DNA of 64,000 bases, from the IMG/VR virus record IMGVR_UViG_3300027734_000044, positions 1 to 64,000 of that record; one strand, given 5' to 3'. This stretch comes from a virus. Position 1 is the first letter of the stretch; each line of letters opens with the position of its first letter. The position numbers and the translations under genes were made by a program. Under the pieces are notes generated by a model that was not told where the DNA came from, made no database searches, and saw nothing but the letters and a program-made list of their open reading frames with translations. Positions 39,898-47,158 of the stretch are shown here, one piece after another.

Positions 39898-41016
39898 CTA
39901 CTCCTCTCTATTCCAGAATGGCTTTTGATATTTAGGCCGGATCATCTTCCAAACTATATCATCATAGTTCTTACCGTCCCATATAGAAAAACAGATAGCC
40001 TTTATAGAAGGTTCAGTTTTGCAGAATTCTAAGTGCTGTGCAAATTCTTTCTTAGTAGGCTCGATCTCACGATCACTGTATTTTCCGTATCTGAAATAGT
40101 AGTGAATCTTTCCAGCTCTTTCCTCTATAGCATATTTGTGATATCTAAGATCTGTTATTGTTTTTCTAACCCAAGCATCGAATTCGTCAGGTACTCTTTC
40201 AAGAAGAACATTTATATCTCTTCCATCCTTTAATGCTTCCCATATATCAACATTAGAAAAATTAGTAAGAAGCCTATGCAATCTAACATATTCTTCGAAT
40301 TTTATTTTCATTCTAAAATTACCAGGTTGAAATCTAAGAATAAATCCCTCCTCGTTTTTTGTGTTTTTATCCTTTAAAGATTTATAAAGATCTTCACCGA
40401 AAGAGAAGTGCTGCTCACATTTAACTATATCGGATTTTTTTATACCGCTGCCTTTAAATAATGATAAAGATGTTGTCCAGTGTTGTTCTTCCCCATTAAC
40501 AGAAGTGCTTAGGAAAACTATTTTCTCTTCATTTTTGTAGTCAACTACAATTCTGTTATCCGGATAAATTATTTCAACTATATAGGTTACCTCCTTGAAG
40601 AAGACCTGATCAAAAACAGAATAGTTTTTTCTTAGTATTTCCATTCCTCTCTTCGCCTGATCTGAAGTAAAAGATCCTTTAGTTGCAAGATGCCATTCAT
40701 CCTGGTAATAAAAGAGTATACCTAGGGATCCGTCCATCTTTTCTTGCACATAAACATAATCTCCTTTAGTCGGAGCCTGATCAGCAACTTCCTCGTAATT
40801 AAAAAACTTACTGAAAGCAGAGGCAACAACATATCCTTTATCGTCTATTATTGTTCCTCTCATAGACAATGTTACTTCGTCCCAATCATTCTTAAATTGA
40901 GTTTCCCTTGAATAATTATAGATGGATATAGGAAGAGTCGGGTGAGGATTTCTTTCTATCCTTCCCTCGTTAACATATTTGTTAAGTGTCCTTATAGCGT
41001 ATTTCTTTCTTTCCAT
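39898..41016 (-). CDS. rnlA: RNA ligase, T4 Rnl1 family
   Basis: 372 residues, close to the 374 of T4 Rnl1. The nucleotidyl-transfer lysine is in QEKMDGSLG near residue 93. Motif IIIa/IV 'EGFILRFQPG' and motif V 'MKIKFEEY' follow near 225-240. The C-terminal domain is helical. Rnl1 seals broken RNAs, typically tRNAs cut by host anticodon nucleases. The HD-domain gene overlaps its start. The P-loop kinase at 46742-47158 could supply 5' phosphates. Confidence 0.85.
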   Translation of the reverse strand: MERKKYAIRTLNKYVNEGRIERNPHPTLPISIYNYSRETQFKNDWDEVTLSMRGTIIDDKGYVVASAFSKFFNYEEVADQAPTKGDYVYVQEKMDGSLGILFYYQDEWHLATKGSFTSDQAKRGMEILRKNYSVFDQVFFKEVTYIVEIIYPDNRIVVDYKNEEKIVFLSTSVNGEEQHWTTSLSLFKGSGIKKSDIVKCEQHFSFGEDLYKSLKDKNTKNEEGFILRFQPGNFRMKIKFEEYVRLHRLLTNFSNVDIWEALKDGRDINVLLERVPDEFDAWVRKTITDLRYHKYAIEERAGKIHYYFRYGKYSDREIEPTKKEFAQHLEFCKTEPSIKAICFSIWDGKNYDDIVWKMIRPKYQKPFWNREE

Positions 41017-44964: not shown

Positions 44965-45114
44965 TAGTCAGGACAGGATTCGAACCTGCATTGTCACCCC
45001 TTTATAGTGTACACCGCGAGCTGCGTCTACCAAGTTAACATTGACCCCGGAGTGGATTCTAACCACATTGTTTTTACCTCTAGAACGGGGTTGTTAACAT
45101 TCCGCCACCTGACT
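44965..45114 (-). tRNA. tRNA-like element (Leu-type D arm) with 66-base insertion
   Basis: A 7-base acceptor stem, AGTCAGG/CCTGACT, closes the element, with discriminator A and no encoded CCA. A T arm, GCAGG-TTCGAAT-CCTGT, is present. The D arm GCG-GAA...TTGGTAGA-CGC matches class II leucine tRNAs but is split by 66 bases flanked by TGTTAAC direct repeats. The insertion folds into a long hairpin (GTTAACA, ACCCCG) and contains its own T-arm-like GTGG-TTAGAAT-CCAC. Without it the element is 84 bases. No convincing anticodon stem is seen, so it may be a pseudogene or an unusual RNA. Confidence 0.4.
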
Positions 45115-45561: not shown

Positions 45562-45597
45562 CTGTGGATTTTTCGAAAAATATTTATGATTAATAAA

Positions 45598-45628
45598 ATC
45601 CCAGGATCAAGGAATGATCCTGGGATTA
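45598..45628 (-). terminator. tmRNA terminator
   Basis: Hairpin AATCCCAGGATCA/TGATCCTGGGATT starts 3 bases after the CCA end of the tmRNA and is followed by TTTTATT. Confidence 0.85.
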
Positions 45629-45631
45629 TTT

Positions 45632-46125
45632 TGGTGGACCTGCCGGGATTCGAACCCGGGTCCAGATCGAATGCTCAAGAAACTCATTCACAGGCTTATT
45701 CCGTTATTCGACACGGACAAACTTTGGTGCATTTCTTTTTTCTTTCAGACTTAATGCTCAGTCTGGGTTACTCCCTGGTATTAGCCAAGTTTCCCTAACA
45801 TTGATAGTGACGATCTAAATGGGTATTGGACGAATCCTCAAGGCTCCACTCAATGTTAAATTGGCAATACTACGAACCTTTTTTCTTGCCGGTTTTGGAT
45901 CTTTCTGTTCCTAGGCCGATCCGGCCCGACGGTTAAGCTGCTAATAGCATCTCAGCCTCTTCTGCTACCGCTACGCGAGTAAGAGAAGTTGGGATACTCA
46001 TGATATCCTCTGGGTTGTAAACGTTTGCGTTTATTGTTTTGATAGGTAATTAAGGATTTCCAATCTAACCCTGCCTGCATCATTTCAAAGAACTAACTTC
46101 GCCTGTCAAATCCAAGAACAGGCCC
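45632..46125 (-). ncRNA. ssrA: Transfer-messenger RNA (tmRNA)
   Basis: 494 bases. The acceptor stem GGGCCTG/CAGGTCC includes the G3-U70 wobble needed by alanyl-tRNA synthetase, discriminator A and an encoded CCA. The 5' side contains the conserved TTGGATTTGACAGG, and the T arm is CCGGG-TTCGAAT-CCCGG. The tag frame uses resume codon GCA (46028-46026) and stops at TAA (45935-45933). It encodes 31 residues beginning ANVYNPEDIMS and ending EEAEMLLAA, much longer than usual tags of roughly 10-20. tmRNA frees stalled ribosomes and marks their products for proteolysis. It follows clpP by 12 bases. Confidence 0.93.
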
Positions 46126-46130
46126 TTTTT

Positions 46131-46139
46131 TTATATATC
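46131..46139 (-). promoter_or_regulatory. Class B (late-type) promoter for tmRNA
   Basis: GATATATAA sits 6-14 bases upstream of the mature tmRNA 5' end, overlapping the clpP stop. The spacing fits initiation at or next to the mature end. Confidence 0.55.
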
Positions 46140-46704
46140 AAATAATCTCGTCGATTATTTTGTACCTTAAAGCCACATTTGCATCAAAGTAGAAATCCTT
46201 AGATCTCTCTACGACCTCTTCTATTTTAGCCTGTGGGAATTTACTTTTAGAAGTTAAGATACCTTCTAATGTTTTTTGTAATCGCTCACACTCTTTAACG
46301 TCGTTCTTAATCCAAGTTAAAGATGAATAAGGATGGCTAGCTATGATCTCATGGAACATAAAAGAAGAATATTTGTGGGCTTTTCTTATATGCCCTGAAG
46401 CCATTACGTATAAAGCTCCTGACATTACCATACCTAAAGCATGAGTAATAACTGGAGTCTTAGAATATTCTATAGCATTAATCAAAGCTAAAGCGCTGTA
46501 TACACATCCCCCTGGACTATTGATGTAAAGATTTATAGGTCTACGTTCAAAGTCTTTAAGCTCTTCATCGTCTTCCTCATCCATAGAATTGATTTCTATG
46601 ATATCCTCTATAACATCATTAGCAGAATCCGGATCTATTTCATCAACCAAATAGAGATTTCGATTTTTCAGGCGATCGTATTTCTTTTTTGAATCCTTGT
46701 TCAT
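46138..46704 (-). CDS. clpP: ClpP-type serine protease
   Basis: 188 residues, close to mature bacterial ClpP. 'INLYINSPGGCVYSALALI' is the ClpP signature. The catalytic serine is in GMVMSGALY (near 95), the histidine in FMFHEI (near 118) and the aspartate in ERSKDF (near 167), so the triad is intact. The first 45 residues differ from host ClpP and contain an acidic EEDDEELKD segment that could change docking to ClpX. No Clp ATPase is visible here, so host ClpX is the likely partner. Lies directly upstream of the tmRNA. Confidence 0.9.
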   Translation of the reverse strand: MNKDSKKKYDRLKNRNLYLVDEIDPDSANDVIEDIIEINSMDEEDDEELKDFERRPINLYINSPGGCVYSALALINAIEYSKTPVITHALGMVMSGALYVMASGHIRKAHKYSSFMFHEIIASHPYSSLTWIKNDVKECERLQKTLEGILTSKSKFPQAKIEEVVERSKDFYFDANVALRYKIIDEII

Positions 46705-46741: not shown

Positions 46742-47158
46742 CTATAAAGAGATCTCAAATCTGCCTTTCATTTTTTCTAAGGTGTCATCAGGAACTCCGT
46801 GAACGTTTTTACCTCCATGTCTATTCTCGACAATTATAGTAAATACCATGTACCCGTATTTTTTTGCAAGCTTAATATAATGCTCCATCTCCCATTCTTG
46901 TGTGAATGTATTAGAGACCGCAATCTCTCTGTAGAATTGGTCATTGACTAATGAGTCCTTCATGTATGTCTCAACTGTGTCTTGACAGAATTTGTGGGCT
47001 TCTTTGATCTTAGTAAAATCAAAGTTATATTCTCCAGTCTCCTTATCTATAAAGTATTTGTCTGCTTCGCAAACTAGGAAGTCTTCTCCTACTAATTTTT
47101 TTGCAAATGTTGATTTACCAGATCCTGGTATTCCTCTAACTATGTAAAGTGTCTTCAT
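46742..47158 (-). CDS. P-loop kinase, polynucleotide-kinase-like
   Basis: 138 residues. Walker A GIPGSGKSTF at residues 8-17. 'CEADKYFID' follows as the substrate-binding acidic motif, and 'VSNTFTQEWEME' corresponds to the lid/Walker B region of zeta-toxin/PNK-like kinases. Small stand-alone kinases of this type phosphorylate RNA or DNA 5' ends. With the RNA ligase at 39.9 kb it could form a repair pair. The substrate is not proven. Confidence 0.78.
   Translation of the reverse strand: MKTLYIVRGIPGSGKSTFAKKLVGEDFLVCEADKYFIDKETGEYNFDFTKIKEAHKFCQDTVETYMKDSLVNDQFYREIAVSNTFTQEWEMEHYIKLAKKYGYMVFTIIVENRHGGKNVHGVPDDTLEKMKGRFEISL

Follow-up and report, generated by a model that had tools for sequence, protein, structure and literature searches.

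The ssrA system of Escherichia coli, which works with ClpXP and ClpAP, uses a tag of about 10 codons (ANDENYALAA), and the U(-5)/A(-4) signature ahead of the resume codon is a rule established in this organism (PMC2481249). According to the accessible portions of two reports, tmRNAs are also encoded by Bacillus phage G and the mycobacteriophages Bxz1 and Wildcat (PMC4131195), and by the OM43 phage Melnitz and 402 of 18,146 phages (PMC9004378). Huge phages with tmRNA and SmpB, and the Lak phages, have been described as well (PMC7162821). Phage tmRNA, phage SmpB and phage ClpP are thus already known one by one, and for years there have been only guesses at the purpose of phage tmRNAs. The tmRNA analysed in this work resembles the E. 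coli molecule in its G3-U70 tRNA-like domain, H2, PK1, U/A resume signature, hydrophobic ..AA end and terminator, but its tag has 31 codons. Unlike bacterial tmRNA, it also has a conserved EDxMSIPTS segment, a hairpin within the tag frame and linkage to clpP. With the known phage tmRNAs it shares a full tmRNA carried on the phage and the presumed use of host SmpB, whereas the accessible portions of PMC4131195 and PMC9004378 describe neither a clpP partner nor a conserved long tag, and the Melnitz tmRNA is given there as two-piece while the present one is one-piece. As in the huge phages, tmRNA, SmpB and, in our searches, ClpP can share one phage genome. However, tmRNA and ClpP are unlinked in LR756500, LR756504 and Lak-A1, and the tags of LR756500 and Lak-A1 have about 10 codons. 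In the literature searched, with thin coverage of subscription papers and preprints, no description was found of clpP-ssrA or clpP-smpB linkage in phages, or of long tags in which an internal motif and a hairpin are conserved. The long tags, their conserved motif and the in-frame RNA hairpin are new design features for tmRNA.

The window, meaning the whole stretch of DNA that was analysed, comprises 64 kb of a 129,821-base viral record. The record is that of a T4-like tailed phage with topoisomerase subunits, DNA polymerase, RNA ligase, ribonucleotide reductase, baseplate and tail fibre. No match to the region was obtained at the nucleotide level among 50,697 phage records, and relatives were gathered via a topoisomerase search and tmRNA motifs. 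The features considered are the following:

46742-47158, minus strand: AAA_33 P-loop kinase-like protein (phrog_2071; Pfam, PHROGs), first gene of the conserved cassette
46138-46704, minus strand: ClpP-family serine protease, 188 aa (PF00574, 90.5 bits; triad, AlphaFold, Foldseek)
45632-46125, minus strand: one-piece tmRNA gene (ssrA), 494 nt (RF00023, ARAGORN, covariation in 8 relatives)
46054-46072, minus strand: first helix of PK1 (cmscan alignment; covarying columns 54-59/68-73)
45933-46028, minus strand: 31-codon tag frame from GCA to TAA, ANVYNPEDIMSIPTSLTRVAVAEEAEMLLAA (resume-codon rule, openness in 8/8 relatives, pS/pN test)
45992-46008, minus strand: tag-internal hairpin GGAUAU-CAUGA-GUAUCC over the EDIMSI codons (compensatory changes, synonymous recodings)
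45597-45627, minus strand: intrinsic terminator with a 13-pair stem, directly after the encoded CCA (terminator scan)
39898-41016: T4-type RNA ligase

The tmRNA gene was aligned to the full RF00023 model (positions 1-374) with 85.6 bits and an E-value of 8.8e-32, against a gathering score of 47 bits. It was the single cmscan match to tmRNA across the whole 64 kb and was also detected by ARAGORN. The tRNA-like domain is complete in both sequence and alignment: the acceptor stem GGGCCTG/CAGGTCC is paired at 7 of 7 positions, including G3-U70, which is the alanine identity pair, the T arm is present, and the gene encodes the discriminator A and the CCA end. The terminator hairpin downstream of the CCA is followed by a T-rich tail. 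In the consensus folding of the tmRNAs of eight relatives, compensatory change was observed in 31 of 82 pairs, located in the long-range helix H2 (alignment columns 26-28/476-478), PK1, H5 and the tag hairpin, so covariance support extends beyond the acceptor stem and T arm. The middle of the molecule (where PK2-PK4 would be expected) matches the Rfam model poorly, and RNAalifold cannot display pseudoknots. The initial annotation had proposed a complete tmRNA, with G3-U70, CCA, T arm and terminator, 12 bases downstream of an intact clpP gene; the RF00023 score and the sequence confirm the former, and the coordinates and the PF00574 score the latter. The features required for charging with alanine and for resumption on the 31-codon tag are all present in the sequence. 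The kinase-like gene lies 37 nt before clpP, which in turn lies upstream of the tmRNA, and all three are on the same strand. Because 12 nt are too few to hold a separate promoter, the tmRNA is likely to be co-transcribed with clpP, and it would be cut out of the joint transcript by tRNA-processing enzymes.

The order kinase, ClpP, tmRNA on one strand was found in G000, G001 and G004, with 12-15 nt between ClpP and tmRNA (13-15 nt in G001 and G004), and the order ClpP, kinase, tmRNA in G070. Kinase orthologues adjoin the tmRNA in L009, L010 and L131. In a maximum-likelihood tree, whose long branches leave exact placement unsure, the ClpPs of these four phages fall into three lineages: that of G001 and G004 has 243 aa, and that of G070 is a third, canonical type. 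The window ClpP finds no pairwise match to the 243-aa protein, which is detected by Pfam search, and G004 carries a second, window-type ClpP elsewhere. Since three ClpP lineages occupy the slot beside the tmRNA, it appears that the pairing arose, or its slot was refilled, on more than one occasion. By comparing all 19 phage records with both genes, clpP and tmRNA were found linked in 4 and apart in 15, in most cases by many kb; the unlinked set includes the huge phages LR756500 and LR756504, plus Lak-A1. Under a crude random-placement model, with shared ancestry uncorrected, 0.08 linked records would be expected (P about 1e-6; for at least three linked, P 6e-5). ClpP was undetected in many tmRNA phages, most of whose records are fragments. 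Adjacency of clpP and ssrA therefore holds for G000, G001, G004 and G070, but it is not general.

A second arrangement joins clpP to smpB. Among 80 phage smpB loci, 9 have clpP upstream on the same strand, at a spacing of 0-7 nt in eight and 869 nt in one; among 80 phage clpP loci, smpB is just downstream in 9 and the kinase is within 1.5 kb in 13. These pairs, usually 0-7 nt apart, are on the following contigs:

L446-L452, L460, L474, L528-L533, L560, L566 and L569: phage clpP-smpB pairs in IMG/VR contigs

The clpP gene immediately precedes smpB in G021 and G053, and one gene lies between them in G082. Many of the clpP/smpB contigs are closely related and their counts therefore not independent; that clpP-tmRNA and clpP-smpB are two different arrangements is a stronger point than the counts. 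SmpB is encoded by G004 and by 6 of 26 other tmRNA phages, and phage tmRNA adjoins phage smpB in L487, L508 and L513, as in many bacteria. In the window's own 129.8-kb record SmpB was looked for and not found, and the scanned proteins yielded neither ClpX nor ClpA, which presumably makes the phage dependent on SmpB and an unfoldase from the host. The "self-contained" character first given to the module is thus not supported, while the idea of rescue coupled to degradation gains comparative support from the linkage of clpP to tmRNA in four phages and to smpB at 9 of 80 loci.

That clpP is repeatedly linked to genes of trans-translation speaks for a functional module. On balance, we favour the view that the kinase-like, ClpP and tmRNA genes form a phage operon running trans-translation during infection. 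The tmRNA, with host SmpB and alanyl-tRNA synthetase, would release ribosomes that have stalled on broken mRNAs, expected to be abundant during a lytic infection, and would append the 31-residue tag to the stalled products. The hydrophobic ..LLAA end would then act as a ClpX/ClpA-type degron and deliver them to Clp protease. Whether by itself or in a mixture with host ClpP, the phage ClpP would raise or alter the capacity to destroy tagged products, which would thus be degraded by the phage enzyme. The linkage of differing ClpP lineages to tmRNA or smpB connects phage trans-translation with proteolysis and opens the question of its purpose to testing; it suggests that, during infection, some phages have a tag-and-degrade module of their own at work.

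A less likely but possible explanation is that the tmRNA serves ribosome rescue only, via host SmpB and ClpXP, and that phage ClpP, though encoded in the same operon, acts generally in proteostasis or takeover and gives tags no special handling. Consistent with this, the tags end in ordinary ..AA degrons, clpP is distant or undetected in most tmRNA phages, and in many phages it adjoins the kinase in loci lacking tmRNA or SmpB. On the other hand, adjacency of clpP to tmRNA or smpB is repeated with different ClpP lineages, which argues against this explanation. A dedicated phage tag-and-destroy system, in which the internal EDxMS of the long tag is read by a phage-altered Clp so that proteolysis of stalled or host proteins is redirected, is a more doubtful extension of the favoured reading.

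The tag frame starts with GCA at 46028, stops with the TAA ending at 45933, and encodes the C-terminus LLAA. Rewiring of host proteolysis, escape of the tag from host adapters and a signal in the tag other than degradation, as first proposed, are conceivable roles; the ..AA end still looks like an ordinary ClpX-type degron. The resume codon follows PK1 by 12 nt and is preceded by the U(-5)/A(-4) signature. The frame is open in 8 of 8 relatives, a set that includes the window's own phage (G000, G001, G002, G004, G007, G008, G059 and G071), whereas the other two frames contain stops in all 8; the tag has 31 codons in every member except G004, with 33. The pS/pN of the tag frame is 1.76 versus 1.11 in column permutations (P 0.0055). 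In the G000/G002 pair by itself no synonymous excess was seen in the tag frame, so the claim of coding constraint rests on the more distant pairs. The 31-codon frame ending in LLAA, as originally annotated, is preferred because of the position and signature of its resume codon, its openness in the relatives and the excess of synonymous change. Tags of the same type occur in five further phage tmRNAs (29-34 codons). The motif EDxMSIPTS[LI]T recurs among tags of 29-34 codons, with a nearly invariant core save in G001 and G004, which have a DVMNI version, and related segments such as FEDAMSF are present in other phage tag families of 23-25 codons.

The codons of this segment also form the tag hairpin, which in each of 16 tags equals or exceeds 92-99.8% of synonymous recodings in stability (97% for the window's tag), although the 16 tags are related and these results are not independent tests. 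The stem varies between GGAUA/UAUCC in the G000 type and UGAUGU/ACAUCA in the G001 type, it differs in the FEDAMSF type too, and compensatory changes between relatives are seen in the alignment. Taken together, the stability of the hairpin, the compensatory changes and the conservation of the tag indicate that the EDxMS region is constrained both as RNA and as protein. As protein, the EDxMSIPTS segment may be an adaptor or tether site, and as RNA, the hairpin may keep the 93-nt coding loop compact. It is improbable that the phage tmRNA acts mainly as a decoy or competitor that sequesters SmpB or swaps the tag, so that host tagging is switched off or diverted. A TLD-only tmRNA is reported for phage DS6A, and a molecule of this kind has an inhibitory effect on tmRNA in E. 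coli (PMC4131195; PMC11915505), and phage tags are far longer than the commonest tag length, 10. However, a decoy would not need the coding constraint found on the tag frame and resume site, and some relatives encode their own SmpB.

The window ClpP retains the triad Ser95/His118/Asp170 (alignment A7), as do all ClpPs aligned, and its AlphaFold model (pLDDT 87.4; Foldseek TM about 0.84 to solved ClpP) predicts the ClpP fold of peptidase family S14. It differs from the solved ClpPs in an identity of about 25-29%, an acidic insertion near residues 40-52 and a shortened N-terminal axial segment. In the sequence alignment most of this segment is absent: residue 10 aligns to residue 23 of Coxiella ClpP, and the start lies about 13 residues later than in 3q7h. 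The N-terminal axial loop, which the unfoldase uses, is dispensable for S14 membership but needed for canonical ClpXP function, so docking of phage ClpP on host ClpX is doubtful, and mixing with host ClpP would be an alternative. A viral scan with the window ClpP as single query gave no matches. Its best PHROG match is the head maturation protease family phrog_94 (4.1e-22), but a prohead protease placed beside the tmRNA by coincidence is very improbable. The gene lies outside any head module: its annotated neighbours are the kinase, the tmRNA and replication genes (DNA polymerase, topoisomerase), with no capsid, portal or scaffold gene among the neighbours scanned. Moreover, Pfam and fold agree with a true ClpP, and the pairing recurs elsewhere with other ClpP types.

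The 9-codon tag given by ARAGORN for the window tmRNA (EEAEMLLAA), with the longer frame untranslated, is most likely wrong and hardly credible as the real tag, because, although its GAA at gene position 164 is likewise preceded by A at -4 and U at -5, its distance from PK1 is wrong, relatives keep the 22 codons upstream open and under coding constraint, and ARAGORN itself gives a 31-codon tag in the close relative L008. ARAGORN shortens long phage tags to 8-9 codons or takes another frame in the window, L214, L216, L218, L210, L212 and L222, and tag tables built with it may therefore be wrong for phages. Many other phage tags have an internal hydrophobic segment, e.g. GNVYNNMEVSGLLATSKVAA, GNTNFWSLVNESVNAPVTEELLAA and GKKSVWDAINSFGTPVTEVEYAYAA:

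L208, L213, L314, L322, L329, L432, L441 and others: phage tag families of 20-25 codons

RNAalifold also places the resume-codon region in a helix with sequence immediately 5' of the H2 3' strand, with some compensatory change, which would be unusual if real:

about 46018-46028 and 45700-45712 of the window (alignment A4, columns 99-108 and 417-426): resume-codon pairing

The kinase-like protein is remotely similar to T4 polynucleotide kinase (1ly1/1ltq matches). Together with the RNA ligase, this likeness makes repair of cleaved tRNA or tmRNA a possible, speculative companion function. The initiation regions of the phage genes show little Shine-Dalgarno signal and are A-rich, with A peaks at -11 and -3, which we take to be Bacteroidota-like; the host is therefore probably a Bacteroidota species. 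Cyanobacteria accounted for 67 of 68 matches to the H2/T-loop motif TAAGCCTGTGAATGA..GGGTTCGA of the phage tmRNAs among 84,980 prokaryote genomes (L356-L423). A cyanobacterial affinity was rejected, as this is a short-motif resemblance and the initiation regions are Bacteroidota-like. Downstream of the tmRNA there is a further element:

44965-45114, minus strand: tRNA-like element (RF00005, 27.9 bits, cut-off 29)

It resembles tRNA-Leu but carries some 71 additional nt in its D arm, and the extra piece has its own mini acceptor/T-arm-like fold and is flanked by the direct repeat AATGTTAAC. With introns allowed, ARAGORN reads the same element as a tRNA-Ser with a 58-nt intron.
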